Source of the DNA: Rheinheimera sp. SA_1
Lineage (GTDB): Bacteria > Pseudomonadota > Gammaproteobacteria > Enterobacterales > Alteromonadaceae
Direction of reading: 5' to 3'
DNA length: 64,000 nucleotides
NCBI RefSeq assembly: GCF_001669775.1
Contig: NZ_LXWK01000015.1
Coordinates: forward strand, 930,001 to 994,000
A model generated the notes under the pieces. It saw only the letters and a list, made by a program, of their open reading frames with translations, ran no database searches and was not told where the DNA came from. The translations under genes were made by a program, and so were the position numbers. Of the stretch, positions 18,529-53,380 are shown in pieces (positions within the stretch are counted from its first letter, which is position 1; each line of letters opens with the position of its first letter).

Positions 18529-18570
18529 TTGCCATCAGCAACCAATATGATATAAATGAAAGCGCTTACA
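18529..18570 (+). promoter_or_regulatory. GH3 promoter with LacI-type operator
   Basis: A candidate promoter, TTGCCA (18529-18534), 16 bp, TATAAA (18551-18556), is followed directly by the palindrome TGAAAGCGCTTACA (18557-18570). The operator would cover the transcription start, the classical position for repression. The palindrome matches those at 44057 and 53132. The leader to the GH3 start is about 160 bp. Promoter hexamers are my reading, not measured. Confidence 0.75.
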
Positions 18571-18727
18571 GCAGCATATTCCATAATTATCAGGTGGCAT
18601 CTTTGCTGATTTTGTGTCGCTCTTTGTCGGCTCTGCCGCTTTGGAGCACGGCACAATATCATCAGCATTGGGTTGAGCTTTGCAAAGCTACCTTTAAAAA
18701 TAATCGCTGAAACAAGGACTTGACTAA

Positions 18728-21343
18728 ATGATGCCATCTTTACCACACCGCCGTTTATTCGTCGGCCTGACACCTGTTGCTGCCGCTTTGCTGATGGCGC
18801 TGACGGGTTGCCAGCCAAAATCAGCTGCACCTGAAACAACATCTCCCGCAGAACCTACTGTTGCCGCCAACGAAGCTACTGTAACTTCAGATCCAGCAGC
18901 TATCTGGCCCAAACTACAGATCCCACGTCAGGGTAATGCCGAAGAAGAAGCTAAAATCGCCAAGCTATTAGCGGCAATGACGCTGGAACAAAAAATTGCA
19001 CAGATGATTCAGCCGGAAATCCGCGATATTACCGTTGCAGATATGCGCAAATATGGTTTTGGCTCTTACCTCAATGGTGGCGGTTCTTTCCCGGCCGGTA
19101 ATAAACACGCCACACCGGCAGACTGGATTAAACTGGCTGAAGATATGTATCAGGCGTCGATTGATGCCAGCCAGGATGGTTCAACCATTCCAACCATGTG
19201 GGGCACTGACGCCGTGCATGGCCACAATAACGTGATTGGTGCGACGTTATTTCCGCACAATATTGGTCTTGGCGCTGCCAATAACCCAGATTTAATTGAA
19301 CAAATTGCCAAAGCTACCGCCCGCGAAGTGATGGTGACCGGCATCGACTGGGTATTTGCACCGACCGTTGCCGTAGTACGCGATGACCGCTGGGGCCGCA
19401 CTTATGAAGGTTACTCCGAAGATCCAACCATTGTCCGCAACTACGCCGCGGCTATTGTCAAAGGTTTACAAGGCGCACCGGATGCCGACTTTTTAGGTGA
19501 TGAACGGGTCATCAGTACAGTGAAGCATTTCCTTGGTGATGGCGGCACTGAAGGCGGTATTGATCAGGGCGACAATATTTCGACCGAACAACAGCTGTTT
19601 GATATCCATGCCCAGGGTTATGTCGGTGGTTTGCAGGCAGGCGCGCAAACAGTGATGGCGTCTTTTAACAGCTGGCATGGTGAAAAAATCCATGGTAACA
19701 AATACTTACTTACTGATGTGTTAAAAACCCGGATGGGTTTTGATGGTCTGGTGGTCGGTGACTGGAATGGCCATGGTCAAATTAAAGGTTGCAGTAACGA
19801 TAACTGCGCTGCCGCTGCTAACGCTGGCTTGGACGTATATATGGTGCCAACTCCGGCCTGGAAACCATTGTATGAAAACCTGATTGCACAGGTGAAAAGT
19901 GGTGACATTGCACAAAGCCGGATTGATGATGCCGTGACCCGGATTTTACGGGTGAAAGTTCGTGCCGGTTTATTTGAAAAACCAAGTCCGGCCAAGCGGC
20001 CACTATCTGGTAAAACCGAAATTATCGGCTCGGCCGAACACCGTACTGTGGCAGCTGCCGCTGTGCAACAATCTTTGGTGTTGTTGAAAAACCAACAAAG
20101 CTTGCTGCCGTTAAAGCCAACCCAGAAAATTCTGGTGACAGGCCAAGGGGCTGACAATATCGGTATGCAAAGTGGCGGCTGGACCATCACCTGGCAAGGC
20201 ACTGGCAACAATAACGCCGATTTCCCTGGCGGCAGCTCAATTTATGCCGGTATTAAAACCCAGGTCGAAACCGCTGGTGGCCAGGTACAACTGAGTAACG
20301 ACGGCAGTTATCAGCAAAAACCTGATGTGGCGATTGTGGTATTTGGCGAACAGCCTTATGCCGAAGGCAATGGTGATATCGACAATGTCGAATATCAGCG
20401 TGGCAATAAAACCGATTTAACGCTGCTGAAAAAATTGCAGGCCGATGGCATTAAAGTGGTGTCGTTGTTTATCAGCGGCCGGCCATTATGGGTCAATGCC
20501 GAGCTGAATGCTTCGGACGCCTTTGTCGCCGTTTGGTTACCAGGTAGCGAAGGCCATGCCATAGCGCCGGTATTATTTAGCGACAAAGACGGCAAAGTGC
20601 AGCAAGATTTTCGCGGTAAGTTATCATTTTCCTGGCCAAATGGTCCGGATCAAACCAAAGTCAATAAAGCTGATACCGACTATCAGCCGCTCTTTGCCTA
20701 TGGTTATGGTTTAACTTATGCCGATACACCTGAGCAAGCGGCCAGCTTGTTTAGTGCGCCACTGCCGGAAACCAGTAGCACCAGCAACACCCTTAGTGCG
20801 CTGCCGTTGTTTGACCGCGACATTAAAGCGCCATGGCAGTTTGTGCTGCAAAGCGCTGAACAATCCGCCGCAGTTAGCAGCAACCAACAGACGCTGGGTG
20901 CAGTGAAATTACAAAGTTTTGACCGCAATGTACAGGAAGATGCGCGTTTAATCAGCTTTGATGGTTCGGCCAAAGCCAGTGTGGCCCTTCGCAGTAATTT
21001 CCCACGGGATTTACGCGCATTTGGTGGCAAAGAAGCGGTGCTGAGTTTAATGCTGAAAGTGGATGCAGCAGTGACGGCGCCGGTGGATCTGTCGATGCAC
21101 TGTAACGAACAATGTAGCGCCAGCTTCGATATCAGCCCACAGTTACAACAGCTTAAAGCCGGTGTCTGGACTGAACTACAAGTGGACGTCAGTTGCTTTA
21201 CCGGTAAAGGCGTGGATTTAGCGCAAATTGCAGTTCCGCTGGCGCTGAGCAGCAGCGCCAAGTTGCAACTAAGTTTCGCCGAGCTGAAGTTATTACCACA
21301 AGGCACAGCTGATGCGGTGAAACTGCAGTGCCCACAAAGCTGA
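18728..21343 (+). CDS. GH3 beta-glucosidase / exo-1,3-1,4-beta-glucanase lipoprotein
   Basis: The 871-residue protein has a lipoprotein signal (MALTGC, about Cys28). The GH3 N-terminal barrel begins around residue 75 (MTLEQKIAQMIQPEI). The catalytic nucleophile lies in GFDGLVVGDWNGHGQIKG (Asp345). The C-terminal alpha/beta sandwich contains KNQQSLLPLKPTQKILVTG and the glycine-rich GGWTITWQGTGNN. The last 170 residues form an extra beta-rich module, as in exo-acting glucan glucohydrolases of marine bacteria and Cellvibrio. It probably releases glucose or cellobiose units from beta-glucan oligosaccharides at the outer membrane. It is the first gene of the LacI-operator-controlled cluster. Confidence 0.92.
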   Translation: MMPSLPHRRLFVGLTPVAAALLMALTGCQPKSAAPETTSPAEPTVAANEATVTSDPAAIWPKLQIPRQGNAEEEAKIAKLLAAMTLEQKIAQMIQPEIRDITVADMRKYGFGSYLNGGGSFPAGNKHATPADWIKLAEDMYQASIDASQDGSTIPTMWGTDAVHGHNNVIGATLFPHNIGLGAANNPDLIEQIAKATAREVMVTGIDWVFAPTVAVVRDDRWGRTYEGYSEDPTIVRNYAAAIVKGLQGAPDADFLGDERVISTVKHFLGDGGTEGGIDQGDNISTEQQLFDIHAQGYVGGLQAGAQTVMASFNSWHGEKIHGNKYLLTDVLKTRMGFDGLVVGDWNGHGQIKGCSNDNCAAAANAGLDVYMVPTPAWKPLYENLIAQVKSGDIAQSRIDDAVTRILRVKVRAGLFEKPSPAKRPLSGKTEIIGSAEHRTVAAAAVQQSLVLLKNQQSLLPLKPTQKILVTGQGADNIGMQSGGWTITWQGTGNNNADFPGGSSIYAGIKTQVETAGGQVQLSNDGSYQQKPDVAIVVFGEQPYAEGNGDIDNVEYQRGNKTDLTLLKKLQADGIKVVSLFISGRPLWVNAELNASDAFVAVWLPGSEGHAIAPVLFSDKDGKVQQDFRGKLSFSWPNGPDQTKVNKADTDYQPLFAYGYGLTYADTPEQAASLFSAPLPETSSTSNTLSALPLFDRDIKAPWQFVLQSAEQSAAVSSNQQTLGAVKLQSFDRNVQEDARLISFDGSAKASVALRSNFPRDLRAFGGKEAVLSLMLKVDAAVTAPVDLSMHCNEQCSASFDISPQLQQLKAGVWTELQVDVSCFTGKGVDLAQIAVPLALSSSAKLQLSFAELKLLPQGTADAVKLQCPQS

Positions 21344-21425: not shown

Positions 21426-21965
21426 ATGAAAATTGGTAACGTAAAAGTGCAGGCACAACCTCAGACCTTGATTATCATGGGCGTTGCTGGCAGTGGGAAA
21501 TCCACCGTCGGTAAGCTGTTGGCGGCCGAATTAAATTACCTGTTTCTGGAAGGTGATGATTTTCACAGTGATGAAGCCAAAGCGATGATGGCGTCGGGTA
21601 CCCCGCTTCGCAGCGATTTACGTCAAGAGTGGGTCGACCGGCTAGCTGTAACTCTGATGCAGCATGCCGCCACTGACAAGCCTTGTGTGCTGAGTTACTC
21701 AGGTTTAATTGCCAGCCAACGCCAGCAGTTACGTGAAGCCGGGTCACAGACCCGCTTTATTTATCTGCAGGGTTCGGCTGAGCTATTAGCGGCACGACTG
21801 GCAGAGCGCAGTGGTCATTATATGCCAGCCAGTTTGCTGCAAAGTCAGCTCGACAGCATGCAAAATAGTAGCAGCGAAGTTGATGTACAACCTTTTTCGA
21901 TTGACCAAGAGCCCGCGGCATTATTGCAGCAGATCCTGCACTGGTTAAAACCGCCGGGCACCTAG
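21426..21965 (+). CDS. gntK: Gluconokinase
   Basis: The 179-residue protein carries a P-loop (GVAGSGKST, 19-27), the gluconokinase segment FLEGDDFHSDEAKAMMASGTPLRSD, and RSGHYMPASLLQSQL, corresponding to the family's GHFMxxxLLxSQ. It phosphorylates D-gluconate to 6-phosphogluconate with ATP. The usual Asn in the DDxHxxxN segment is replaced, but spacing is kept. The ribosome-binding site before ATG 21426 is weak. Its position between GH3, a sugar symporter and a GH94 phosphorylase suggests that gluconate is produced inside the cell from an oxidised disaccharide. Confidence 0.9.
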   Translation: MKIGNVKVQAQPQTLIIMGVAGSGKSTVGKLLAAELNYLFLEGDDFHSDEAKAMMASGTPLRSDLRQEWVDRLAVTLMQHAATDKPCVLSYSGLIASQRQQLREAGSQTRFIYLQGSAELLAARLAERSGHYMPASLLQSQLDSMQNSSSEVDVQPFSIDQEPAALLQQILHWLKPPGT

Positions 21966-22026: not shown

Positions 22027-23460
22027 ATGTCACAGCAACAGGCCGATATAGCTTTTTCAGATCAGAGCAACACTTCAAATCTTATCCATACATCCCCACT
22101 ACGCTGGCGCGAGAAAATCAGTTATGGCCTGGGCGATATGGGTTTTAACTTTTATTGGGCTAATATCTCGGCCTTTTTATTAATTTATTACACCGATGTG
22201 TTTGGCATTTCAGCCGCTGCCGCTGGCACCATGATGCTGATCACCAAAATCATTGATGCCATTACCGATCCGCTGATGGGTGCAATTGCCGATCGCACAC
22301 AGAGCCGCTTTGGCAAATTCCGGCCTTATTTGTTGTGGATGGCATTGCCGCTGGCCGGCGCTGGCGTGCTCACTTACTCCACGCCAGACCTGTCTGAAAA
22401 CGGCAAACTGCTGTGGGCTTATGGCACTTATTCGCTACTGATGCTCTGTTATACCGCGATTAATATTCCTTATTCGGCGCTGTCCGGTGTGATGACCGGC
22501 GACAGTCAACAACGCACGCAGTTAGTAAGCTTGCGCTTTATCGGCGGTTTTAGCGGTGGGATAGTGGTGACTTATCTGACACCAAAACTGGTGGTGTGGC
22601 TGGGTCAGGGCAATGAAGCGCTTGGCTGGCAGCTGACAATGGGCTGTTTTGGTATCGCGGCTGCACTGATGTTTTTAATCACCTTTGCCAATTGCCGCGA
22701 GCGAGTGCAACCGATTGCCGCCAAGCCAGCTGCTGTATCGCAAGATTTGAAAGACTTAATGCACAACAAAGCCTGGCTGGTGTTGTTTGCGCTGGCGCTG
22801 ATCATTATGGTGACCATCACCATGCGTGCCAGCAGCGCGGTGTATTACCTGAAATATTATCTGCAGCGGCCGGATTTAGTCGGTGAGTTTTTATCCTCAT
22901 ATATGCTGGCACTGGCACTTGGCGCGGCCTGCACGCCGTTGATGACCAAATTTTTGGATAAAAAACCCTTATTAATGCTGCTGATGACTTTGGTCGGATT
23001 GTTATCAATCAGCCTGTATTTTGTGCCAGCCGATGCCGTCAGCCTGATCTTTGGCCTGAATTTATTGATTGGCTTTTTACTCGGGCCAAAATCGCCGCTG
23101 GCGTTTTCGATGTATGCCGACACGGCGGATGACAACGAATACCGCACCGGTCGGCGCGCCACAGCAATGACCTTTGCAGCCGCCACTTTTTCGCAAAAAC
23201 TCGGTGGTGCTCTGGCTTCGGCGATGATTGGCTGGCTGCTGGCTGCCATTGGCTATGTCGCCAATGCCGAACAAAGCGCGGGTTCGCAGCAAGGCATTTT
23301 ATGGCTGATGACGATTATTCCTGGGGTGATTGCGTTACTGGCGGCCTGGGTAATGCGGTTTTATCCACTGACTGAAGCCCGGCTTTCGGAAATCCAGCAA
23401 CAATTGCAGGTGCAAAAAGCTGCGGCTGTAGCATCAAACTCATCTGCCGGAGCGGTCTGA
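22027..23460 (+). CDS. GPH-family sugar:cation symporter 1
   Basis: This 477-residue protein has about 12 membrane segments and the family's opening block KISYGLGDMGFNFYW ... LLIYYTDVFGISAAAAGTM, followed by DAITDPLMGAIADRTQSRFGKFRPYLLW, the conserved loop 2-3 signature of glycoside-pentoside-hexuronide symporters. It is followed two bases later by the GH94 gene, so the two are co-translated or nearly so. The substrate is inferred to be cellobionate or a related beta-glucoside disaccharide. A paralogue with the same signature lies at 41090-42418 beside a GH1 enzyme. Confidence 0.92.
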   Translation: MSQQQADIAFSDQSNTSNLIHTSPLRWREKISYGLGDMGFNFYWANISAFLLIYYTDVFGISAAAAGTMMLITKIIDAITDPLMGAIADRTQSRFGKFRPYLLWMALPLAGAGVLTYSTPDLSENGKLLWAYGTYSLLMLCYTAINIPYSALSGVMTGDSQQRTQLVSLRFIGGFSGGIVVTYLTPKLVVWLGQGNEALGWQLTMGCFGIAAALMFLITFANCRERVQPIAAKPAAVSQDLKDLMHNKAWLVLFALALIIMVTITMRASSAVYYLKYYLQRPDLVGEFLSSYMLALALGAACTPLMTKFLDKKPLLMLLMTLVGLLSISLYFVPADAVSLIFGLNLLIGFLLGPKSPLAFSMYADTADDNEYRTGRRATAMTFAAATFSQKLGGALASAMIGWLLAAIGYVANAEQSAGSQQGILWLMTIIPGVIALLAAWVMRFYPLTEARLSEIQQQLQVQKAAAVASNSSAGAV

Positions 23461-23462
23461 TT

Positions 23463-25916
23463 ATGTCTTTGCTTGAAAAAAATGCGCTGCAACCAATCAT
23501 GCAACCCACAGCAGATGGCCAGCGTTATCAGCTATTTAGCCCAACGGCGATGCCAGCCGCCTGCAGCTTTTTATGGAACCCGATGCTTCTGCTGCAGCTC
23601 AATTGCCGCGGTTTTGCCACAGCGCAATTTATGCAGCCGGAGCCGGCTAAATATGCCCATGCGCCGGTGCTGGAAGCCAAAACCTTTATGCAGCCGGAGC
23701 AACCTTATTTTGCCCATCATCCGGGGCGGTTTGTGTATCTCAAAGATGAGCAGGATGGCCGCATTTTTTCGCTGCCCTATGAACCGGCAAGGCAGCAGGC
23801 CGAGCAGTTTTGTTTTTCGGTTGGCAAAAGTGATGTGCAGTGGCAGGTGCAACAAGCTGGTTTAGCACTAAATTGGCAAGTGACGTTAAGCCCGGATGCG
23901 CCGCATGAGCTGTGGCAGCTGACCGTGCAAAACTTCAGCTCCACAGATGAGCATGCGCAGCCACGCCAACTCAGCATTTACCCTTATTTTCCAGTCGGTT
24001 ATATGTCATGGATGAATCAATCCGGTGACTTTAACGCTGATTTGAATGCGGTAGTTTGCACAAGCGTGACGCCATATCAAAAATACCCGGACTTTTTTAA
24101 ACAGCAGTTTTTTAAAGATCAGACCTTTTTACTGGCGGAACAACCGCCTATCGCCTGGTGCGCCAATCAAAACCTGTTTGAAGGCGAAGGTGGTTTACAG
24201 CGACCCGATGCACTAATGGGCTCGACTTTAGGCAATCAAGCGGCGCACTATCAGACGCCGGTCTGCGCCATGCAATATGCGCTGACCTTAGCGCCGGGTG
24301 AAAGTAGGGTTTACCGTTTTGTATTTGGCCCGGCTTATGACAAGTTTGAGATTGCGGCAGTACGGCAACGCTATTTTGGCGATACAGCACTGCAATCAAC
24401 GGCAGCCTCACCTGCTGACGGTTTTACCCAGGCCCAACAACAAGCCGCCAACCGTCTAAATGAGCTCAATCCTTGCCTGCAAATCCATACGCCTGATGAA
24501 ACACTGAATAATTTCGTCAATCACTGGCTGCCACGCCAGCAGTTTTATCATGGCGAAAGTAACCGTTTTACCACCGATCCGCAGACCCGCAATTATCTGC
24601 AGGATCATATGGGGATGTGTTATTTAAAGCCTGATTCTTTCCGTCAGGCCCTGCTAAAAGCTTTGTCGCAGCAACATGCCAGCGGCGAAATGCCGGATGG
24701 TATTTTGCTGCACCCAGAGGCCATGCTTAAATACATCAATCAGGTGCCGCATACCGACCAATGTGTCTGGTTACCGGTGTGTTTGACTGCTTATCTGGCG
24801 GAAACCGCTGACTATGCGCTGCTGGATGAGTTAGTGCCTTTTTCCGACGAAACCATTGCACAGCCGGTTTTTGAGCACCTAAAGCGCGCCATGGCCTGGC
24901 TGGTGCTGAAAAAAGACCAACGCGGCTTAAGTTATATCGAACAAGGCGACTGGTGCGATCCGATGAATATGGTGGGCTATAAGGGCCGCGGCGTGTCGGG
25001 TTGGTTGTCACTGGCCAGTGCCTACGCGCTGAACTGTTTTGCCGACATCTGCCAGCAGCATGGTTTGCCAGAACTTACCACACACTATCGGCAAGAAGCG
25101 GCGCAGTTTAACCAGGCAGTGAATACCCAGCTTTGGGATGGTAACTGGTATGGACGTGGTATCACCGATGATGGCCGGATCTTTGGCGTCAGTGCCGAGA
25201 CTGAAGGACGGATGTACCTGAATCCACAAAGTTGGGCCATGCTGTCGGGCGCGGCGGATGCCAACAAAATTCGGTTGCTGCTAAATGCGATCCAGGAGCA
25301 CTTACAAACGCCTTATGGCGTACAAATGCTGGCGCCGGCTTATACCCGGATGGTGCAGGATATTGGCCGCTTAACCCAGAAATTTCCGGGCTCAGCCGAG
25401 AATGGTTCGGTCTATAACCATGCGGCGGCCTTTTATCTGTATGCGCTGTATCAGATTGGTGAAGCGGATTTGGCCTGCGAGCTATTAAAACAAATGCTGC
25501 CTTCTGACGACGTCGCCGATCAAAAACAACGCGGCCAACTGCCAGTCTTTATCCCCAATTACTATCGCGGCGCCTATCAAACCCTGCCCGGCACCGCCGG
25601 TCGCTCCAGCCAATTGTTTAATACCGGCACCGTTGCCTGGGTTTATCGCGCTTTGGTCGAAGGGATGTTTGGGGTGAAAGGTTGTGCCGATGGCCTACGT
25701 GTCGAACCACAATTACCCTCGCAATGGACCGAAGCCAGTATTGTCCGGTTGTTTCGTGGCGCGCGTTTTGATATCCGGTTTAGCCGTGCAGCGGGTGTCG
25801 ATACACCGCAGTTGTGGCTGGATGGAGTGTTATTACCAGAGTTATTGATCCGCGAGTTTAGGGTAGGACAGAGTTATCAGGTCGTCGTGTTTTTGCCTTT
25901 GGTGGGGGCGGATTAA
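23463..25916 (+). CDS. GH94 phosphorylase, probably cellobionic acid phosphorylase
   Basis: The 817-residue protein has the GH94 layout: N-terminal beta-sandwich (to about 300), helical linker, (alpha/alpha)6 barrel (about 345-745) and a C-terminal beta-sheet. The catalytic region reads IEQGDWCDPMNMVGYKGRG, with the candidate general acid in GDW at residue 496; cellobiose phosphorylases have DWND here. GH94 enzymes split beta-glucosides with phosphate to glucose 1-phosphate. The adjacent gluconokinase and the variant active-site segment favour cellobionic acid as substrate, giving glucose 1-phosphate and gluconate. Cellobiose, cellodextrin or laminaribiose phosphorylase activity remains possible. 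It is the last gene of the cluster. Confidence 0.85.
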   Translation: MSLLEKNALQPIMQPTADGQRYQLFSPTAMPAACSFLWNPMLLLQLNCRGFATAQFMQPEPAKYAHAPVLEAKTFMQPEQPYFAHHPGRFVYLKDEQDGRIFSLPYEPARQQAEQFCFSVGKSDVQWQVQQAGLALNWQVTLSPDAPHELWQLTVQNFSSTDEHAQPRQLSIYPYFPVGYMSWMNQSGDFNADLNAVVCTSVTPYQKYPDFFKQQFFKDQTFLLAEQPPIAWCANQNLFEGEGGLQRPDALMGSTLGNQAAHYQTPVCAMQYALTLAPGESRVYRFVFGPAYDKFEIAAVRQRYFGDTALQSTAASPADGFTQAQQQAANRLNELNPCLQIHTPDETLNNFVNHWLPRQQFYHGESNRFTTDPQTRNYLQDHMGMCYLKPDSFRQALLKALSQQHASGEMPDGILLHPEAMLKYINQVPHTDQCVWLPVCLTAYLAETADYALLDELVPFSDETIAQPVFEHLKRAMAWLVLKKDQRGLSYIEQGDWCDPMNMVGYKGRGVSGWLSLASAYALNCFADICQQHGLPELTTHYRQEAAQFNQAVNTQLWDGNWYGRGITDDGRIFGVSAETEGRMYLNPQSWAMLSGAADANKIRLLLNAIQEHLQTPYGVQMLAPAYTRMVQDIGRLTQKFPGSAENGSVYNHAAAFYLYALYQIGEADLACELLKQMLPSDDVADQKQRGQLPVFIPNYYRGAYQTLPGTAGRSSQLFNTGTVAWVYRALVEGMFGVKGCADGLRVEPQLPSQWTEASIVRLFRGARFDIRFSRAAGVDTPQLWLDGVLLPELLIREFRVGQSYQVVVFLPLVGAD

Positions 25917-28038: not shown

Positions 28039-28062
28039 AGACTCGCCTTGAATTAGTCAGAT

Positions 28063-39915: not shown

Positions 39916-40029
39916 CGGGACTCCGGTTTGAATGAACTGAATGATTTTTTCGCCCTGGATAACCATTTGGTTAAACATCAGCGTTGAACATCAGCCAGTC
40001 ATTTCAACGACAGTGCAACGACCAGCTGC

Positions 40030-42418: not shown

Positions 42419-42495
42419 CATCTTCCCCTGCTTTAACGCCATTTATCATTGTTGTTTTTAGTTTTTTTAGTAGCTTTTTATTATTTTTTGCAGAC

Positions 42496-42653
42496 TATAC
42501 CCAAAATCATTGAAGATGCGGGTAGGCGGCATCTGAGCGTATCTGGAACGCCAGTCCGACCCAGAGCATAGCAGTCTATGTGACTGGGCCGGGCTGGCGC
42601 ACCAGTTCGCGAAGGCTGCCAACAACCCCGCATCTTCAAGGATGACGGGTATA
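42496..42653 (+). repeat. TATACCC/GGGTATA palindromic repeat, copy B
   Basis: This 158-bp imperfect palindrome starts TATACCCAAAATCATTGAAG and ends CTTCAAGGATGACGGGTATA. It has the core AGCATAGCAGTCTATG followed by TGACTGGG. It is about 30 bp longer than copies A and C in the central arms. Its last 18 bases overlap the 3' end of the GH1 gene and supply its stop codon. It lies inside an operon, so its transcript would fold into a long hairpin between GH1 and the symporter. Confidence 0.88.
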
Positions 42654-44056: not shown

Positions 44057-44111
44057 TGTAAGCGCTTTCAAAGTGTTTCAGCAGTGTAGTTTGCATGCAG
44101 GTGATGATCAA
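44057..44111 (-). promoter_or_regulatory. GH1 operon promoter with LacI-type operator
   Basis: On the minus strand TTGATC (44106-44111), a 17-bp spacer and TACACT (44083-44088) make a candidate sigma-70 promoter. Twelve bases further on comes the palindrome TGAAAGCGCTTACA (plus strand TGTAAGCGCTTTCA, 44057-44070), which covers or closely follows the transcription start. A promoter here would let GH1, symporter and LacI be expressed separately from the halogenase genes upstream. Confidence 0.75.
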
Positions 44112-44129: not shown

Positions 44130-44861
44130 TCAGGCTAAAAAGTTGATAAATATATTGGCGGTCAACCGACCTTTGCTGATGGAAGCTGCAATATCGGTCG
44201 CCGGATTAACCAGGCTGGAATGTAGTAAATTCCCAGGATATATGACCAAACGGTTTTGCCGGTATTCGAGCTTTTGGTATAACTCAAAATGATCGTTGGT
44301 TTCGATACAATAACCTTGTCGCGGTGCGCCAAAGCGGGCTAAATGCTGCTCGGCTGCCTGAAAATACCCGGACTGAGTGGCCGCAGTGATTTTTTCAAAT
44401 CCGGTCGGCCGATGGCGAAACAAGCCGGTGCCACCATGGGGCTCCGGACTCAAATAATGCAGCAGCGCAAAATAATACGGATCAGTGCTGTCAAAATGCG
44501 GTAAACATTGCAGTGGTTTTAAATCCTGTTCTGCAGTGGTGATCAACGAATAATAAATATCCTGCGGCTTGAGTCGTCGCTCGCGCGGCACCTGATAGAC
44601 CTGGTAAATCAGCTGATACACCGCATCCAGCACTGCAATCACATAAGGCCGCGGCAACATCGCCCGCACGCCGGGGTAATAAGAATGCGCGTCGGTCTGA
44701 AAATCAGCGCTAGAAGCATCCGCCAGCAATACCGACAGATCCGCAGCCAGATCATCAATGATCAATATCGGCGTTTGCTGCGCGCCGACATAAATCAACT
44801 GCGGTTTTAGAGCGGTATTGATCGCAAAAGCGCGCGCTGCATCACTCGCAAAATCGGTCAT
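44130..44861 (-). CDS. DUF6445-type 2-oxoglutarate/iron oxygenase-like protein
   Basis: The 243-residue protein has a double-stranded beta-helix pattern: CLPHFDSTDPYYFALLHYLS supplies an H-x-D, GGTGLFRHRPTGFE forms the middle strands, and RLVIYPGNLLHSSLV supplies the distal His. This fits the DUF6445 proteins found beside flavin-dependent halogenases and SapC in TonB-receptor clusters. Its substrate is unknown. Its start lies three bases after the stop of halogenase 1, so the genes form one operon. Confidence 0.78.
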   Translation of the reverse strand: MTDFASDAARAFAINTALKPQLIYVGAQQTPILIIDDLAADLSVLLADASSADFQTDAHSYYPGVRAMLPRPYVIAVLDAVYQLIYQVYQVPRERRLKPQDIYYSLITTAEQDLKPLQCLPHFDSTDPYYFALLHYLSPEPHGGTGLFRHRPTGFEKITAATQSGYFQAAEQHLARFGAPRQGYCIETNDHFELYQKLEYRQNRLVIYPGNLLHSSLVNPATDIAASISKGRLTANIFINFLA

Positions 44862-44864
44862 GAC

Positions 44865-46385
44865 TCAGACAATCGCCGACTTACAGTAATACTGCAAAAA
44901 CTCTTGATGCGTTGGGAAATTCTGCACCGTTTTCTGCACATTAGCGGCAATGGTGCCAAGGAAATCCGTTAGTTCACCATCGCTCATCGCATCGACAATC
45001 GGGTGATATTGCGCCGGTAAAATCCCTTGACCCATCATCACCTGGATCCAGGAGCTTTCGCCAAATAGCTCCTGCGCAAACTTATACACTTTGCCCGATT
45101 GCGCGAATAAATCCATCCGATGCGTCAACGATTCAGGCACCGCCATATCGCGGCAATAACGCCAGAATTTGCTGTCGTCGCGCTGGGTGGCTTTGTAATG
45201 CAAAATAATAAAGTCGCGGATATTGTGCATTTCAATCTGCGTTTGTTTATTAAATTCATCCACTTCCGCAGTTTGAATGCCGTTGGATGGAAACATCTGC
45301 AACAAGCGCACAATGCTGCGCTGAATAAGGTGAATACTGGTCGATTCCAGCGGTTCTAAAAAGCCACTGGATAAACCAATGGCGATACAGTTTTTATTCC
45401 AGTGCTGGTGGCGGGTGCCGGTGCGAAATTTAATCACCCGCGGTTCAATCAACCGTTCCCCTTCAATATTTGCCAGCAACAAAGCTTTGGCTTCATCATC
45501 GCTCATAAATTTGCTGCAAAACACCATGCCATTACCTACGCGGCTTTGCAGTGGAATTTTCCACTGCCAGCCCGACGGATGGGCGATTGCGCGGGTATAA
45601 GCGACTGGCGATTCAGTGGTTTTAGTTTGCACGGCAATGGCGCTGTCGCAGGGTAAAAAGTGGCTCCAGTCTTCGAAACCGGTATTCAGGGTTTGTTCGA
45701 TCAATAAGGCCCGAAAGCCGGTGCAATCGATAAATAAATCCCCTTCAATCAGCTCGCCTGACATCAGCTTCAACGCACTGATGTGGCCGTCAGCATGTTG
45801 CTGTACTTCGGAAATTTTACCTTCTACCCGCTTCAGACCATGTTGCTCGGCCAGCTTGCGCAGATATTTGGCATAAATCGTCGCATCCATATGATAAGCA
45901 TGGTTTAAATCCTGATTCGGTAACACCGCAAACCGGCCTTGGCGTGCCGCCAGATGTTCCACACAATAATCGCCAATCTCGCGGGCGATGCCACGTTGCT
46001 GTGCTTTGCTCCAAAAATGCTGAAAACCACAGGCCCAACAATCTTTGCCAAGAAAACCAAAGGAGTGCAGATACTTCTGATCGCGTTGCAGCCAGTTTTC
46101 AAACATGATCCCCAGCTTAAAAGTAGCGTTGGTAGCGGCCATAAACTCCTGCTCATTGATGCCGAGCAAGCGGTGGAAAATATGCAAGGTTGGAATGGTG
46201 GCTTCACCGACGCCAACAGTGCCGATTTCATCCGATTCCACCAGCACCACTTCCAGGTTTTTCCCCAGCAGTTTGCTAATGGCCGCACCGGTCATCCAGC
46301 CCGCAGTGCCACCACCGGCGATCACTACTTTTTTAATCGGCCTTTGCGTGTCACTCGCTGCGGCACTGAAATTGACCTGTTGCAT
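44865..46385 (-). CDS. Flavin-dependent tryptophan-halogenase-family protein 1
   Basis: The 506-residue protein has the FAD-binding VIAGGGTAGWMTGAAISKLLG, the halogenase motif WxWxIP (GWQWKIPLQSRVGNG) and a conserved Lys in ATFKLGIMFENW, the position that forms the haloamine in PrnA-type enzymes. SGFLEPLESTSIHLI provides the active-site Glu and Ser. It should need FADH2 from a reductase not present here. Similar enzymes in TonB-receptor/SapC clusters have no proven substrate. It lies about 20 bp after the cupin gene and 3 bp before the DUF6445 gene. Confidence 0.9.
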   Translation of the reverse strand: MQQVNFSAAASDTQRPIKKVVIAGGGTAGWMTGAAISKLLGKNLEVVLVESDEIGTVGVGEATIPTLHIFHRLLGINEQEFMAATNATFKLGIMFENWLQRDQKYLHSFGFLGKDCWACGFQHFWSKAQQRGIAREIGDYCVEHLAARQGRFAVLPNQDLNHAYHMDATIYAKYLRKLAEQHGLKRVEGKISEVQQHADGHISALKLMSGELIEGDLFIDCTGFRALLIEQTLNTGFEDWSHFLPCDSAIAVQTKTTESPVAYTRAIAHPSGWQWKIPLQSRVGNGMVFCSKFMSDDEAKALLLANIEGERLIEPRVIKFRTGTRHQHWNKNCIAIGLSSGFLEPLESTSIHLIQRSIVRLLQMFPSNGIQTAEVDEFNKQTQIEMHNIRDFIILHYKATQRDDSKFWRYCRDMAVPESLTHRMDLFAQSGKVYKFAQELFGESSWIQVMMGQGILPAQYHPIVDAMSDGELTDFLGTIAANVQKTVQNFPTHQEFLQYYCKSAIV

Positions 46386-46406
46386 GGTTGTCCCCTTGTT
46401 TTTAGG

Positions 46407-47465
46407 CTAACGCTTTAATTTATTCTGTAAATCGGCCCGCAGTTGCCGGGCGCTAAGTTCATCCAGCGGTTTTTGCAGCATGCCTTTGGCAGCTTCAGGC
46501 ATCGCTGGCTCTGGTGCATCTTCGTGTTCAAAAATGTAATAGTTAAACAGTGCTTGCCAGGCTTGGCGCTGTGCTTTAGGTAAACTGCGCAGGCTTAACA
46601 TACTATGCAACAAGGCATTGGTTGGCCGCCCCAAATAAGCCGGACTATCGCGCCACCAATGACTGACCAGAATATTCAGCGCGTCGTGCCCCTGCACGTG
46701 GTGCCACCACATACTCGGGATAAACAGCACATCGCCCGGTGCTAATGCAGCAATCGACGCCGCTTGTTGCGCCTTGGCAAATCGTGGAAATTGGTCTAAA
46801 TCCGGGTTCAAAAAATCGACCAGACTGATGTCCTGGCCACCAGGTGCAAACTCCATCGGCCCTGGGTATAAATTCTCGATTTGCTCTGGCGGCAATAAAG
46901 TAAAAGTCCGATGTCCGACCACGTTACAAGCCAGGTTTTGTGGAAAATCAAAATGCGCCGGGATCCGCGCCTGATTGCCAAGCCAGACGCTGGTCAGCGG
47001 CTGCAACAATAAGTGTGCCAAACTATTGTGCTCAGCGAGCCCGGTAAACCAGCGGTGAATTTCGGTTGAGCCCATATACCAGATAGATGCAGGCTTCCCG
47101 GCCGCTTGCTGCTCTGCGCTTTGCTGTAATTGTTTGAACAACAGCGGCAACGGTATTTTGCCCGCCTGATAGTTAAAGCCAGAAAAGTCCGCATTATAGA
47201 ACACCCGCCCCTGCGTTTCCGGCGCCAGCTGACAGACACTGACCGGCTCGCCCTGCTCAAACTGCAGCAAATAATCGGCAGCAGCGGCGTCAGACACCAG
47301 CCCGGCTTGCACCAGCGGCCAGTTCAGACATAAACCTTTTAGAATCAGCGGCGTGGTGCGGTTTTGCAGCAGGTTTTGCAATTCAGGTAACAGCGCCGCA
47401 CTATCGGTTGCATCGATAGATTCGACTGCAGGCGCCTGTTGTTGCCACAAAGCCAGCCCTTGCAT
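46407..47465 (-). CDS. JmjC/cupin-8-like hydroxylase-type protein
   Basis: The 352-residue protein has a cupin-like core with the Fe(II) motif H-x-D in RIPAHFDFPQNLACNVVGHRTFTLLPPEQ and the distal His in DVLFIPSMWWHHVQG. Both belong to the factor-inhibiting-HIF/JmjC-like group, which hydroxylates proteins or other substrates using 2-oxoglutarate. The C-terminal 80 residues are helical. It lies between SapC and halogenase 1, with only a few bases between genes, and is a regular member of these clusters. Its substrate is unknown. Confidence 0.83.
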   Translation of the reverse strand: MQGLALWQQQAPAVESIDATDSAALLPELQNLLQNRTTPLILKGLCLNWPLVQAGLVSDAAAADYLLQFEQGEPVSVCQLAPETQGRVFYNADFSGFNYQAGKIPLPLLFKQLQQSAEQQAAGKPASIWYMGSTEIHRWFTGLAEHNSLAHLLLQPLTSVWLGNQARIPAHFDFPQNLACNVVGHRTFTLLPPEQIENLYPGPMEFAPGGQDISLVDFLNPDLDQFPRFAKAQQAASIAALAPGDVLFIPSMWWHHVQGHDALNILVSHWWRDSPAYLGRPTNALLHSMLSLRSLPKAQRQAWQALFNYYIFEHEDAPEPAMPEAAKGMLQKPLDELSARQLRADLQNKLKR

Positions 47466-47468
47466 GGC

Positions 47469-48206
47469 TTAACCCGCCGCCTGCTGTACCAGCTGATTTT
47501 TCAGCCGTAATAAAGTACGGACATTCGACTGCGACGCCAGCGCCATATAGATCGCCTGCAAATAACCCCGCTGATGTAAAGCGGTCAAAGCTTCAGCCGA
47601 CAGCGCCTTTAACTTGTCTTCGTTGATGGTATAGAACCCAATCATCTGATGTTTGGTACCATCGTCCAGCTGCACATCCAGCGCAAAAGCTTCCAGCAAC
47701 TCCAGCGCCAACAGCTGTTCAACAAACTGCTGACTGTCCTGCAAGCCAAAATGCAAAGTTTCCAACATACCGGCCACTTGTTCCAGATAGGGACTGTTGC
47801 CACCAAAAGGTAAAAACAACGCTTCGCCTTGCTCTTTGCTCACGCGCGGATGCTCGACATCAATATGAATCACTCTTTGCTGATGCTCGACACCATCTTC
47901 GCGCACAGTTTGCCGACCAATCAAGAATGGCAACCGTAGTACAGATAGCGGAATATAACTGTGCTGCCAGTTATTGGTTTGTAAGAACAGGTTTTCCTGA
48001 TGACTAAAGCCAAACAACGCCACTGGAAATAATTTACCGGTCTGTTGATCTTTATGGAAAAAAATCGGGTATTGCGCCTGCACACTGCGAAATTCCAGTG
48101 GAAACGTTGGCGTAAACCATAAGTTGTCGCCGTATGCCGCGCCGCGTGCGGTGATTACTTTTAATGGCTGATGTTCAACACTGTTCAGTAAGGCAATTTT
48201 TGTCAT
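47469..48206 (-). CDS. SapC-family protein
   Basis: The 245-residue protein matches SapC: LNSVEHQPLKVITARGAAYGDNLWFTPTFPLEFRSVQAQYPIFF, then FPVALFGFSHQENLFL, YIPLSVLRLPFLIG and a C-terminal AIYMALASQSNVRTLLRLKN. The family takes its name from a Campylobacter S-layer-associated gene and has no proven activity; here it lacks a signal peptide. It is regularly found between a TonB receptor and halogenase-like genes in sugar-responsive clusters. Confidence 0.88.
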   Translation of the reverse strand: MTKIALLNSVEHQPLKVITARGAAYGDNLWFTPTFPLEFRSVQAQYPIFFHKDQQTGKLFPVALFGFSHQENLFLQTNNWQHSYIPLSVLRLPFLIGRQTVREDGVEHQQRVIHIDVEHPRVSKEQGEALFLPFGGNSPYLEQVAGMLETLHFGLQDSQQFVEQLLALELLEAFALDVQLDDGTKHQMIGFYTINEDKLKALSAEALTALHQRGYLQAIYMALASQSNVRTLLRLKNQLVQQAAG

Positions 48207-48266
48207 CTCAGATCCCTGTCATTTTAATTTTGTTGTAGTTATGATTTTATCTTCGCAATCTTTTGG

Positions 48267-49853
48267 TTAAATCGTCGGTAAACCATGCAGGCGGATTTTC
48301 TGTAATAAACCGCGATTATCATCCAGAGCTTTCTTTAACGTTTGAATTCGTTGGATATTTTCATTAAATAGCTGCTGTGCTTTGCGTTGCAACGAAGGTT
48401 TCTGACTGCCGGATAACTGGGTCTGGAAACCCATCCCATACAATACATACTGATAACTGGCCGCAGGAAATAACACATCGCTGTGGCTAATATCCATGGC
48501 TGAAGGTACCTGATATCGCCACAGCCGTAATGCGTCCTGCAACGACGCTGGTATTGACGACGATTCGCGGTGATCATGCCAATAATCGTGATCCGCCCGC
48601 TGACTCAGCACATAGTGTAATTTCAAAAATTCGATGATCTGCTGCCAGTGCTGCAAAAATGCTTTATTCAGCCGGGCCGCAACAATGTCCATCACAGCGC
48701 GATTGGCCGGTAACTGGCTGCTCAAGGTTTTGGCGGTCCATTCCACCAGCGCCAGAGCAGAAGCTTCCAGTGGCTCGATAAAACCAGCGGCCATGCCAAT
48801 GGCGATGCAGTTATTTTTCCAGCACAAGGCGCGATGGCCAGGCGCTATGCTGAGTTTACGAAATTCGGCGCTATTCGCTGCTGTTTCGCCGAAATCTGCT
48901 GTTAAATAACTGCGTAATTGCTGCTCGGCGGCACTGTCTGAAATGTGTGACGATGAATAAACATGGCCGATGCCACGGCGTGTCGGCAAACCAATATCCC
49001 AAATCCAACCACAGCTTTGGGCAGTGGAATGGGTGCAAGAGGCGATGGGTGCGTCGGCAGTCGGATATGGCATTTGCACCGCCAGCGCACTGTCGTTAAA
49101 CAGCACCTGCTGTTGGCTAATCATTGGCACCTGCAAATGTTCACCAAGCAGTATCGAACGCAGACCGGAGCAATCGATAAACAAATCGCCGGCAATCTCA
49201 CCGTGCTCGCGGGTCGCGACACTTTTAATATCACCATTCACTTGACTATGAATGGTTAACACATGATCGGCGATGTAGCGGACGCCTAATTTTTCAGTGA
49301 TGTGTTTCTGCAGTAACTGACTGAATTTACCTGCATTTAAGTGATAACCATAGTTATTGATAAAGCTGTATTCAGCGGTGGCAATTTGTTTTGGCGCCAA
49401 GCCCAGTTCCGTCAACTGGAATTGCTGGCACACCGCATCGGCAAAAGCGACGTCCTGCTGATGGGGTAACCAAAATGGACACAGATTTAATTCCTGCTGG
49501 CCAATTGGCAAACTAAAGGGGTGTAAGTAGCTGTCCGGTAAAGTGCGATTGGCCGTGGTCTGCCCACGCCAATTGATAAATTTTGAACCTTGTTTAAAGC
49601 TGGCCTCACAACAGAGCAAAAACTCGGTTTCGCTGATGCCGATTTTCTGCAACGTTAGCCGCATTGACGGCCAGGTGCCTTCACCGACACCAATAATAGG
49701 CACATCGGGTGACTCGATCAGGCTAATAGTCAGTTTGGGAATGGCCGCCAGTACACCCTGATCAGCATTATGTTCCGCTGCCAGTAAACCAGCGGTAATC
49801 CAGCCTGCAGCACCGCCGCCGACGATTACAATATTGCGGATTGAGTTGTCCAT
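48267..49853 (-). CDS. Flavin-dependent tryptophan-halogenase-family protein 2
   Basis: The 528-residue protein has NIVIVGGGAAGWITAGLLAA for FAD binding, the conserved Lys in EASFKQGSKFINW and the Glu in AGFIEPLEASALALV. The WxWxIP motif is changed to WxWxIG (CGWIWDIGLPTRRG), and the Ser after the active-site Glu is replaced by Ala-Ser. The altered motif suggests a changed substrate or loss of halogenation. ATG 49853 was chosen because AGGT precedes it; an ATG at 49886 would add 11 residues. It shares only general architecture with halogenase 1. Confidence 0.88.
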   Translation of the reverse strand: MDNSIRNIVIVGGGAAGWITAGLLAAEHNADQGVLAAIPKLTISLIESPDVPIIGVGEGTWPSMRLTLQKIGISETEFLLCCEASFKQGSKFINWRGQTTANRTLPDSYLHPFSLPIGQQELNLCPFWLPHQQDVAFADAVCQQFQLTELGLAPKQIATAEYSFINNYGYHLNAGKFSQLLQKHITEKLGVRYIADHVLTIHSQVNGDIKSVATREHGEIAGDLFIDCSGLRSILLGEHLQVPMISQQQVLFNDSALAVQMPYPTADAPIASCTHSTAQSCGWIWDIGLPTRRGIGHVYSSSHISDSAAEQQLRSYLTADFGETAANSAEFRKLSIAPGHRALCWKNNCIAIGMAAGFIEPLEASALALVEWTAKTLSSQLPANRAVMDIVAARLNKAFLQHWQQIIEFLKLHYVLSQRADHDYWHDHRESSSIPASLQDALRLWRYQVPSAMDISHSDVLFPAASYQYVLYGMGFQTQLSGSQKPSLQRKAQQLFNENIQRIQTLKKALDDNRGLLQKIRLHGLPTI

Positions 49854-49994
49854 CGGATGACCTGTGCCATTGATAAAATGCATCAAAATAATCTACAGCA
49901 TCTGTGTGCAAAGCAACATCTGGGCTGCAGATTAAAGTCATGGCCAGCACCGGCTGACCATGGGCTTTTGCAGTATGTCTGGTGAGAATAGAAC

Positions 49995-50027: not shown

Positions 50028-50054
50028 ATCCATTCACACCTTGCGCGCTAATGC

Positions 50055-53033
50055 TTAGAAGCTGTAGCGAGCACCGATACTATAACGGGCACCTGTTTCG
50101 ACCAGGCTTAACACCTGTTCTTTGGCACGCCCATGTACCCGCATATACTCGTCCGTCACGTTCAGACCTTCCAGGTAAATGGTCAGGCCTTCCACTTGTG
50201 GCAGGTCGTAACTAACCGACACATCAATCTGCGAATAGGCTTCGGTGTATTTCGGGTTAGCGCCGGTGTCCTGACCGCGGGAGTTCAGGAACTCGTCACG
50301 CCAGTTGTAAGCAATCCGCGCTTGAAAGCCAAAGTTTTCATAAAACACAATGGCGTTGGCGGTATCACTTAAACCGATGAGGGCTGGTTGGTCTTTCAGC
50401 AGGAAGTTGTCATAAGTCTGACCACTATCCACAATCGTGTAGTTACCGATCACGCCAAAACCACTCTCACCAAAGGCATGCTGGACGGCCAATTCCCAAC
50501 CGGTGATCGCTTCAGAGGTATCGCCATTTGAAGGCGTATTGATCTTGAAGTTCATCAGGTTGTCTTCGCCGGATTTACCGCTGATTTTCTTACCGGTGAC
50601 ATCCACTGTTGGATCGTTTGGATAGTTAGCGAAAATCCAGTTACGGATTGCCGCTGCATCAGCGCCGACAGCAGCTAAAGCTTCACGGTATTTCTTACCA
50701 TCAGCTGGGTTGAAAATACCTGCAATAGTCGTGTCTACCACAATGTTACTAATGAAGTTACTGGTGTCTTTACGGAAATAGCCAACCGACGCATAACTGG
50801 TTGGTGAATAGTACCATTCAACCGACAAATCGATGTTTTCCGATTCCAGTGGCAAAAGACTTGGATTACCAGCTGCACCACCGCCACCTGAACGGTTAGC
50901 CAACGTGTCCAATACGGTACCGCCCTGGATTGCTTTATAATCCGGCCGGCCGATAGTTTCACTGTAGGCTGCCCGCACCATCACATCGTCAATAACTTCA
51001 ATGTTAAAGTTCAGATTTGGCAACACATAATCGTAATCACCTTTCAGGTTCTGATAATCACGCTGACCGCTGGCCACTAATGCAATTTCAGTATCTGCTA
51101 TCCAATTCGCACCGTTATAAGCTGCAACCGCAGCGGTTGAAGATACGTCGGTACTTTCAACCCGCACCCCCACATGCACATCATAAGGGCGGCCTTTGAA
51201 TTCAGACGCAAAGTTATATTGCACGTATGCCGCTTGCGTCTCTTCTAAGGTGTAACGGTCAGTATCACGCGCATAATCCGTAGTTGGGCAGAAATCAGTA
51301 CCACAATCGCCAAAACCTTGGTAACCCGCCGGGGTATAAAGTTGTTCGGCACGGTCACGCACCGCATGGAAATCCCAGAAGAAAATCCGGTTTAACAGCT
51401 CGTAAGTTTTACCTGGTGCTGCTGAGAAATCGCCTTTGTTGGCAGAGAATTTGTCGTGAATAGTACCAGCCGGGAACCAGCTGTCGTCAAAGTCACCGGC
51501 TTTACCGACGCCACCCCAGTCATTACGCTGCACGTTGACCGATTTTGAATGGTTGTCGACATCGGTCAACGAAATACCAAAATCGATACTTCCGGCTTCT
51601 TCTAAATCGTAACTTGCTTTGACCTGATACTGGTCGATTTCCGAGCGATTGGTGGAATTACCAAACACACTACCGGTTACCCGCATATCGGATGGCTTGA
51701 CAGCGTTGCCACCACCCACCGCCAGTGCCGGTAAATCACCACTGAAATCAGTCGCAGCATAAGTCCGGATAAAACCGGCAGTACTTAAGGTGTTGTTAGA
51801 ACCAAAGATATTGTTTGGTTTGATTTCGGCGTCCGATTGATGCGCGTCAAAATTAACTTTTAACCGATCAGTTGGCTGCCATTCCAGATTTAAGCCTAAA
51901 GAACCACTTTCGTTGCGCACGCCAAAATCACCGGCACCCATCGATAAGTCGGCAGGAGTGGCGTAATTTTCAGCGTAAATCAGTGGTGACGAAATTGGAC
52001 CATCAGTCCAAACGTTTTGCGAAGGCGCAAAAGTAAACCAGGCCGAAACATCATTGTATTGAGTGTCCACGTCATTACGCATGTAGGTGTAATCAAGCGT
52101 GGCCTTGATGGAATCGTTTGGACTGTATTGCAACACCAGTTGACCGTTGGTACGAACCCGCTGTTGTTCTTCAAATTTGTAGATAGTGGTTTGTGGTACT
52201 GAATAAATATCCGCTGGGCCTGGACGATTGACCTGGCCGGTTTGTGGCACACCGCCCCACTCGCCGGTACCTGCGTCATAGTTGTCATCAGCTTTGCCTA
52301 AAAAGCTGCGCCAGCCGGTGCCAACATTGGCCTGTTGGTTACCACTTTCACGCTCCTGATAACTACCGGAAACCATCACACCGAATTTATTGTCATCAAA
52401 AGTGTTTGAATATAAACCAGAAAATTCCGGTGTCGCCGAGCCGGTTTCAGTTGATTTATCGTCAACCATCGCCACGTTGGCAATTGCCTTCATGCCTGGC
52501 GAGTTTAACGGCCGTAAGGTTTCAACATTGATAGTAGAACCGATACCACCGGTTGGATTGGCGGCGTAAGCTGTTTTGTGAACCTGGACACCGCTGATCG
52601 AATCAGACGCAATGTTGGCAAAATCAAAAGAACGCGAACCGGTCGTAACCGGCATTTGACGGCCATTTAACGTAACTAAGTTAAAATCCGGGCCAAAACC
52701 CCGCACTGAAACTTTACTACCTTCACCATTGACCCGGTCAATCGACACACCGGCAATTCGCTGCAGCGATTCAGCTAAGTTAGTATCCGGGAATTTACCA
52801 ATATCTTCAGCGGAAATAGCATCGACTACCCCGTCGGAAGAACGTTTGATATCCATGGCTTTAATTAAGCTGCCACGGATACCGGTGACGGCAATCACTT
52901 CAATTTTGTCGGATTTTTTCGCGGTATCCGTGCCCACGGCATCCTGCGCCTGTGCTGGCAGCATAGTTCCCACACCCAACACCAAGGACAAACTGGTGGC
53001 GAGTCTGGTCTTTCTAAATGTTATCGGTTTCAT
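50055..53033 (-). CDS. Large TonB-dependent receptor, Caulobacter/Xanthomonas carbohydrate type
   Basis: The 992-residue protein has a signal peptide (SLSLVLGVGTMLPAQA) and a plug with KIEVIAVTGIRGSLIKAMDIKRSSDGVVDAISAEDIGKFPD-type wording, RIAGVSIDRVNGEGSKVSVRGFGPDFN and NLVTLNGRQMP. A long barrel follows, ending VETGARYSIGARYSF. This is the large receptor class that imports oligosaccharides. ATG 53033 was chosen at the signal peptide, with AGGGA nine bases upstream. It heads the halogenase-SapC operon. A perfect LacI-type palindrome lies about 100 bp upstream, so it probably carries beta-glucan oligosaccharides to the GH3 and GH1 enzymes. Confidence 0.93.
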   Translation of the reverse strand: MKPITFRKTRLATSLSLVLGVGTMLPAQAQDAVGTDTAKKSDKIEVIAVTGIRGSLIKAMDIKRSSDGVVDAISAEDIGKFPDTNLAESLQRIAGVSIDRVNGEGSKVSVRGFGPDFNLVTLNGRQMPVTTGSRSFDFANIASDSISGVQVHKTAYAANPTGGIGSTINVETLRPLNSPGMKAIANVAMVDDKSTETGSATPEFSGLYSNTFDDNKFGVMVSGSYQERESGNQQANVGTGWRSFLGKADDNYDAGTGEWGGVPQTGQVNRPGPADIYSVPQTTIYKFEEQQRVRTNGQLVLQYSPNDSIKATLDYTYMRNDVDTQYNDVSAWFTFAPSQNVWTDGPISSPLIYAENYATPADLSMGAGDFGVRNESGSLGLNLEWQPTDRLKVNFDAHQSDAEIKPNNIFGSNNTLSTAGFIRTYAATDFSGDLPALAVGGGNAVKPSDMRVTGSVFGNSTNRSEIDQYQVKASYDLEEAGSIDFGISLTDVDNHSKSVNVQRNDWGGVGKAGDFDDSWFPAGTIHDKFSANKGDFSAAPGKTYELLNRIFFWDFHAVRDRAEQLYTPAGYQGFGDCGTDFCPTTDYARDTDRYTLEETQAAYVQYNFASEFKGRPYDVHVGVRVESTDVSSTAAVAAYNGANWIADTEIALVASGQRDYQNLKGDYDYVLPNLNFNIEVIDDVMVRAAYSETIGRPDYKAIQGGTVLDTLANRSGGGGAAGNPSLLPLESENIDLSVEWYYSPTSYASVGYFRKDTSNFISNIVVDTTIAGIFNPADGKKYREALAAVGADAAAIRNWIFANYPNDPTVDVTGKKISGKSGEDNLMNFKINTPSNGDTSEAITGWELAVQHAFGESGFGVIGNYTIVDSGQTYDNFLLKDQPALIGLSDTANAIVFYENFGFQARIAYNWRDEFLNSRGQDTGANPKYTEAYSQIDVSVSYDLPQVEGLTIYLEGLNVTDEYMRVHGRAKEQVLSLVETGARYSIGARYSF

Positions 53034-53380
53034 TCTGTAATCCCTGTCGACTGTGTTATGGCTACTATTTTTATAAGTGCGTTGTTTTGTTGAGCGCCGA
53101 CCAGGTTGTAAACAGACTTCAAACAACTAACTGTAAGCGCTTACACAACTTAGGTGATTTTGATTCTGGCGTCAATACGCCACCGGGGGAAAGTTCCGCT
53201 TGCACCGAAAAAAAGCAGGGATACTGACAAGAAAAAACCATAATCCGAGGTATAGGATCACGGTCTATCTGCATGATTTATATGAATTTAAGATAAGTTA
53301 AAAAATTTCATCAGCCATGAGCAAAAATCTGTCATTTGCCACAAAAAGCAGCAACCGCGCCACGGATGCGCCAGAATGGT
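53034..53380. other. Control region between TonB receptor and GGDEF-EAL genes
   Basis: The left half carries the receptor's promoter, a LacI-type operator and a second palindrome, TGGCGT-caat-ACGCCA (53167-53182), overlapping the -35 region. The right half (53183-53380) is A/T-rich towards 53300 and shows no gene or hairpin that I can support. Confidence 0.5.
53132..53175 (-). promoter_or_regulatory. TonB-receptor promoter with perfect LacI-type operator
   Basis: On the minus strand TTGACG (53170-53175), 17 bp and TAAGTT (53147-53152) form a candidate promoter. The perfect palindrome TGTAAGCGCTTACA (53132-53145) follows one base later. This repeats the promoter-then-operator order seen before the GH3 gene. 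Confidence 0.78.

Follow-up and report, generated by a model that had tools for sequence, protein, structure and literature searches.

The question raised by this locus is whether gene blocks lying far apart within one stretch of Rheinheimera sp. SA_1 DNA, namely the window of 64,000 nt analysed here, taken from a genome (G000) of 5,163,701 bases in 22 contigs, answer to one and the same regulator. A preliminary description of the window had joined them into a beta-glucoside regulon by means of a LacI-type palindrome that recurs at three promoters. Based on the comparison of genomes presented below, we propose that the three palindromes are the operators of the LacI-family repressor encoded at 40030-41037, which would be the counterpart of Shewanella BglR and would govern three operons, including one that contains a cellobionate cassette. 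Judged from sequence and comparison, the probability of this reading is put at roughly 85%.

In the model, which is most likely that of a classical repressor, the repressor would sit, when the inducer is absent, at or just downstream of the three promoters and would block them. Repressed would then be arm 1, consisting of the gene of a TonB-dependent receptor followed by the halogenase-SapC-cupin block, arm 2, consisting of GH1, a symporter and bglR, and arm 3, consisting of GH3, gluconokinase, a second symporter and GH94. As bglR lies within the GH1 operon, it is proposed that the repressor is therefore autoregulatory. A beta-glucoside such as cellobiose, or its product, would release the repressor, and the cassette of arm 3 would then serve the uptake of cellobionate, its phosphorolysis to glucose 1-phosphate and gluconate, and the phosphorylation of the gluconate. 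In other Rheinheimera the cassette would have its own regulator, as it adjoins a divergent gene of a putative GntR-like repressor. It is noted that the binding, the repression, the inducer, the extents of the transcripts and what the symporters and the GH94 enzyme take as substrate are what we infer from the observations that follow.

Three palindromes and the LacI-family protein

The three 14-mers stand where they had been described (Table 1), with a common core and near-identical flanks. The pattern TGNAAGCGCTTNCA occurs at exactly three places in the whole genome, all of them within the window and preceding the GH3, the GH1 and the TonB-receptor operon, and the reversed pattern, used as control, occurs at none. 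An order-2 Markov model derived from the window expects the pattern 0.65 times per genome and 0.008 times per 64 kb. The word is thus not one that is scattered before many unrelated genes: the genome scan gives only these three places, all at the proposed promoters. When up to three mismatches are allowed, the 14-mer has three matches in the window vs 3.11 expected, all three carrying 0 or 1 mismatch, and it has 153 places in the whole genome vs 175 for the reversed control; the degenerate copies are therefore taken as background and no wider regulon is claimed. Note also that the 8-bp core AAGCGCTT shows no clear enrichment within the 64-kb window (4 copies, shuffle mean 1.94, at least 4 in 13 of 100 shuffles), the fourth copy, at 22616, lying inside a symporter gene without the operator flanks, and the claim therefore rests on the full 14-mer.

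That the sites belong to the LacI protein of the window is supported by their co-occurrence over 196 genomes of the family and by their placement before the same genes in relatives. The 196 genomes hold 609 motif places vs 37 places of the reversed control. Where a strong relative of the LacI protein is present (138 genomes; best E 1e-90 or lower, a cut-off that was picked after the table was seen), the mean number of sites is 4.2 and 127 of the 138 genomes have at least two, compared with a mean of 0.6 and at least two sites in 5 of the 58 other genomes, which include 8 with no LacI match at all; this statistic ignores the kinship of the genomes and so overstates their independence. All 22 genomes of the genus carry at least one site. 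The recognition helix SLATVSR belongs to the window protein alone among the six, of the seven LacI-type proteins of the genome, in which it was read, and the form S-[LIV]-ATVSR is present in 49 of 51 named loci, the helix of the remaining two not having been read. To the earlier description of this protein as the only LacI-family repressor in the window it has to be added that the whole genome encodes seven LacI-type proteins and that the protein of the window has a published counterpart in Shewanella BglR.

Placement was counted in 60 family loci and in the 51 named loci as a site with 0 or 1 mismatch at most 500 nt upstream of the gene, after receptors and GH genes below 50% identity, phosphorylases below 40% and genes near the end of a locus had been dropped. 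Most of the named loci (L115-L165 mapped, of 76 loci) belong to Rheinheimera or Shewanella, the rest to Ferrimonas and a small number of others. Since some named records are the same genomes, part of the named set is shared with the family set. The site precedes GH1 in 19/24 family loci and 40/43 named loci, the TonB receptor (at least 50% identity) in 10/10 and 18/18, GH3 in 10/21 and 4/28, and the phosphorylase operon in 20/36 family loci (the named loci have no such operon), the reversed control giving 0 in every case. The motif thus placed is found before the matching genes both in Shewanella and in other Rheinheimera, and the order receptor, halogenase, SapC, cupin, halogenase, DUF6445 recurs in many Shewanella loci. 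One locus (L098, genome G083) has no receptor-halogenase block and has one site between a GGDEF-EAL gene and GH1; the block may be gained and lost as a whole. In two others (L202 and L205, genomes G033 and G065) phosphorylase, GH3 and GH1 stand together, in L202 with a LacI relative adjoining, and the stretch read has no site at up to one mismatch; the operator may have drifted there.

According to Rodionov et al. 2010 (PMC2996990), Shewanella BglR has predicted sites before bglA-bglT-bglR, before glcP-bglA2 and before the gene of an outer-membrane receptor, and the authors state that many further Alteromonadales have the beta-glucoside pathway. The window resembles this regulon in having a LacI-type regulator in an operon of GH1, GPH symporter and regulator, with sites before this operon, before a second glucosidase and before a TonB receptor, and differs from it in the second glucosidase operon, which is glcP-bglA2 in Shewanella. 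This likeness is judged by the genes and the placement of the sites, with the operator read from the Shewanella loci; the LacI relatives encoded there share 57-73% identity, over the best segment, with the protein of the window. As the window matches the published BglR units, the core finding adds one more example to a regulon already known. BglR also appears among the LacI regulators of glucosides in Ravcheev et al. 2014 (PMC4052901). The main text of Rodionov et al. does not mention halogenase, SapC, cellobion-, gluconokinase or Rheinheimera, and for the halogenase block in this setting no literature match was found in a search that most subscription papers lay outside. What the window would add is the extension of the predicted BglR regulon to Rheinheimera, enlarged by the halogenase-SapC block and by a branch for cellobionate, in the form of a compact and fully listed regulon with three exact operators in the whole genome.

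The proposed cellobionate cassette and its regulator in the genus

The cellobionate branch and the possible change of its regulator would be the new part, the core regulon being already known. It had been described earlier that a GH94 gene is in the regulated region, which agrees with the present analysis; as to its product, it is a relative of cellobionic acid phosphorylase rather than a plain cellobiose enzyme. The protein scores 1078 bits to PDB 4zle vs at most 190 for every other PDB sequence listed. This entry was deposited as a putative b-glycan phosphorylase, and we take it to be the cellobionic acid phosphorylase (CBAP) of Saccharophagus. In the Saccharophagus enzyme, R609 and K613 are presumably the Arg and Lys of the acceptor site; the window protein aligns there with its segment GRLTQK, and GRxTQK is present in 34 of 36 sequences, that of the window included. 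It is proposed that the GH94 enzyme is a cellobionic acid phosphorylase. A structure of the Saccharophagus enzyme is named in the literature. The combination of phosphorylase, gluconokinase and transporter is like that of the cellobionic acid phosphorylase pathway treated for Neurospora (PMC4537572), where, in the part of the paper available, bacterial control by a LacI-type protein is not described. Titles and abstract openings of the literature on cellobionic acid and LacI, with most subscription papers outside the search, likewise give no such regulation. Note also that the genome has one LPMO_10 gene, and a source of oxidised sugars is therefore possible.

In the window the cassette has the order gluconokinase, symporter, phosphorylase and lies 3' of the GH3 gene with its BglR-type site. 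The phosphorylase is present in 16 of the 22 genomes of the genus and a close relative of the GntR-like repressor (at least 80% identity) in 14. The two of the 16 that have the phosphorylase without a close GntR-like gene are the genome of the window and its nearest relative, G157, and it is these two that have the cassette 3' of a GH3 gene with a BglR-type site, one site each. In the window's genome no close GntR-like relative is found, the best match having E 4e-43 and 31% identity. In 13 of the 14 genomes the GntR-like gene lies at most about 4 kb from the phosphorylase and is encoded on the other strand; in G204 the two are on separate contigs. An exact BglR site near the cassette is present in 0 of the 14. 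Among the GntR-type loci that were read, six of the 14 (G192, G111, G176, G137, G045, G205) and two of another genus (G017, G063), all eight have the divergent repressor and seven have no site at up to one mismatch in the stretch read, the sole exception being G045 with a site at one mismatch.

The divergent regulator, scored as a shortened protein, has its best NCBIfam match with GntR (389 bits, the cut-off being 400), and in this it is like the GntR/IdnR gluconate repressors of PMC4052901. The window genome is unlike that case, since it has the cassette 3' of a BglR-type operator and GH3 and no close GntR-like relative. A GntR-like operator pattern, drawn by eye from the sister loci, is absent from the window at 0 or 1 mismatch, and at up to three mismatches it has 16 matches vs 37 expected, none of them between GH3 and gluconokinase. 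In many more distant genera the genes stand behind BglR-type sites in another order, namely symporter, phosphorylase, gluconokinase.

Taken together, we give a slightly better than even chance to a swap of regulator within the genus, by which the cassette lacks the GntR-like repressor here and is read from the BglR-controlled GH3 promoter. In the phosphorylase tree, the sequences of the window and of G157 and eight GntR-type sequences form one group of ten with support 100/100, within which a branch with support 84/78 (not starred) sets the eight apart; the tests reject neither a single Rheinheimera clade (p 0.173) nor a grouping with the genus g18 (p 0.205). With such branching inside the group of ten, the switch may have run in either direction, this lineage having gone over to BglR or its sisters to the GntR-like repressor. 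If true, the swap would tie the use of oxidised cellulose fragments to the cellobiose signal, and the sister lineages would offer material for testing how an operon changes its regulator.

Promoters, reach of the operators and other explanations

Several points weigh against the proposed BglR regulon. Besides the late choice of the cut-off and the disregard of kinship mentioned above, the site is missing altogether from 4 of the 138 genomes in which a strong LacI relative is present, and at least two sites are present in 5 of the 58 others. GH1 is without a site at up to one mismatch in 5/24 family and 3/43 named loci, and for GH3 a site within 500 nt is present in just the 10/21 and 4/28 loci, where the published Shewanella unit with glcP ahead of the second glucosidase may explain the low count. 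The 16 misses of the phosphorylase operon consist of 8 with a GntR-like gene and 8 with neither; one of the former, G045, has its one-mismatch site before gluconokinase and was not counted since the count began at the symporter. A sigma-70 scan at threshold has a single match, near operator 2, and this points away from the regulated genes, so that none of the operators has a promoter above the threshold that reads towards its gene. The comparison of recognition helices covered six of the seven LacI-type proteins. Finally, a terminator-like hairpin (49962-49939) lies in the 168-nt gap between receptor and halogenase block, and the hairpin of an interspersed repeat separates GH1 from the symporter-LacI genes; with these two, read-through is therefore uncertain.

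As to the promoters, it had been claimed that a -10 hexamer or start lies directly before each site, and this finds weak backing: below the threshold, candidates are seen by eye that abut or nearly abut operators 1 and 3, namely TTGCCA-16-TATAAA ending at operator 1 and TTGACG-17-TAAGTT ending 1 nt ahead of operator 3, and the candidate at operator 2, TTGATC-17-TACACT, ends 12 nt ahead. In G157 the operator and both hexamers are identical at site 1, the operator and the -10 are kept and the -35 differs by one base at site 2, and the operator and hexamers are kept with a different spacer at site 3. That these hexamers are real promoter elements is plausible only.

The joining of distant gene blocks into one regulon finds good support in silico in the unique sites, the co-occurrence and the gene order, the reach over the halogenase block and over the genes behind GH3 being suggested by the layout only. 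It could be that the operators are real and control just the first gene or genes, while the halogenase block and likewise the cassette for cellobionate have transcripts of their own, which would fit the hairpin after the receptor and the 82 nt between GH3 and gluconokinase in the window genome. We consider this unlikely, as the halogenase block follows the receptor in Shewanella as well as Rheinheimera loci, gluconokinase starts almost directly 3' of GH3 in G157, and the GntR-like operator pattern is missing from the gap behind GH3. The repeat in arm 2, of which the genome has at least 40 further places, covers the last codons and the stop of GH1 and could lower the read-through into the repressor gene; it is not at this place in G157 and has no match in the loci fetched from relatives. 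Somewhat more doubtful still is that operator 1 acts on the divergent genes (Table 1), instead of or besides GH3: it sits in the intergenic region common to both, as does the site between GH3 and a GGDEF gene in L098, L120 and L152, but the TATAAAT directly before operator 1 reads towards GH3, and in L096 and L107 the site stands before GH3 with no GGDEF neighbour, though in a region common to a divergent receptor gene.

It is very improbable that another LacI-family protein of the genome recognises the three sites. Two paralogs differ from the window protein at just one of two recognition positions (V-A and T-A vs L-A), and a third, with SIKTVSR, is preceded at a distance of about 200 bases by TGTATGCGCTTACT (C17:296286), which differs from the operator at two positions. 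By contrast, the motif co-occurs with relatives of the window LacI and stands at their own operon, and the paralog at C1:925128 has a different palindrome nearby, TGTAATCGATTACA, at 924045 and 925520. Around this latter gene in G000, TGTAATCGATTACA is present twice together with a one-base variant (C1:924045, C1:925406, C1:925520), the copies probably being operators of that paralog itself.

Features of the window and further sites

Table 1. Predicted operators, genes and other elements discussed in the text (positions in the window).
Feature	Position	Strand	Basis or remark
Operator 1, BglR-type (predicted)	18557..18570	+	TGAAAGCGCTTACA; GH3 start codon 157 nt downstream
Operator 2, BglR-type (predicted)	44057..44070	-	TGAAAGCGCTTACA on minus strand; GH1 start codon 74 nt downstream
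Operator 3, BglR-type (predicted)	53132..53145	-	perfect palindrome TGTAAGCGCTTACA; receptor ATG 98 nt downstream
Divergent genes	16816-18426, 15122-16819		5'-nucleotidase C-terminal domain, GGDEF
GH3 glucosidase with Exop_C domain, head of proposed operon	18728..21343	+	PF00933, PF01915, PF18559
Gluconokinase, GntK/IdnK type	21426..21965	+	TIGR01313 136.9 bits, cut-off 113.75
GPH-family symporter, proposed cellobionate importer	22027..23460	+	PF13347; TIGR00792 above cut-off; substrate inferred from context
GH94 phosphorylase, proposed cellobionic acid phosphorylase	23463..25916	+	PF17167, PF06165; 1078 bits to PDB 4zle
3-keto-disaccharide hydrolase-domain protein, 3' of LacI; operon membership uncertain	39106..39978	-	PF06439
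LacI-family repressor, proposed BglR	40030..41037	-	PF00356, PF13377; motif co-occurrence
GPH-family symporter, proposed BglT (beta-glucoside importer)	41090..42442	-	PF13347; GH1-symporter-LacI order as in Shewanella loci
Interspersed hairpin repeat, about 150 nt	42496..42645	-	between GH1 and symporter-LacI genes; fold z -7.47
GH1 beta-glucosidase	42636..43982	-	TIGR03356 591.5 bits, above cut-off
Block of DUF6445, flavin-dependent halogenase, cupin-8, SapC, second halogenase	44130..49886	-	PF20043, PF04820, PF13621, PF07277, PF04820
TonB-dependent receptor	50055..53033	-	TIGR01782 637 bits, PF00593, PF07715

On the minus strand the genes follow in the order TonB receptor, halogenase, SapC, cupin-8, halogenase, DUF6445, GH1, GPH symporter, LacI and hydrolase-domain gene, with the start of the receptor set at the ATG at 53033 and not at the listed TTG at 53126. 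The hydrolase-domain gene is also 3' of LacI in G157 (L094) and in L115. Among known structures, that of a putative tryptophan halogenase (6y1w) comes closest to the halogenase encoded at 44865-46385. An Rfam scan of the window gives nothing at gathering scores. Beyond the GH94 gene, at 27494-28056, there is a gene pair of a ParE-type toxin and a Phd/YefM-type antitoxin.

Three sites with one mismatch are found elsewhere in the genome. That at C12:1015159 lies inside a long open reading frame (ORF). Those at C1:1435995 and C20:85276, the latter reading TGTAAGTGCTTACA, lie outside the surrounding long ORFs, are each kept in one relative (G203 and G157, respectively) and are candidates for further sites; the word TGTAAGTGCTTACA is present in just 3 of the 22 genomes of the genus. 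At C20:85276 (L013 position 1501), it stands 35 bases before GTTCCACGTGAAAC, which resembles a parS site, and a TonB-receptor ORF starts about 390 bases away. The site at C1:1435995 (L011 position 1501), TGTAAGCACTTACA, stands just before an ORF of 471 codons, and it is in L212 that it is kept in G203.

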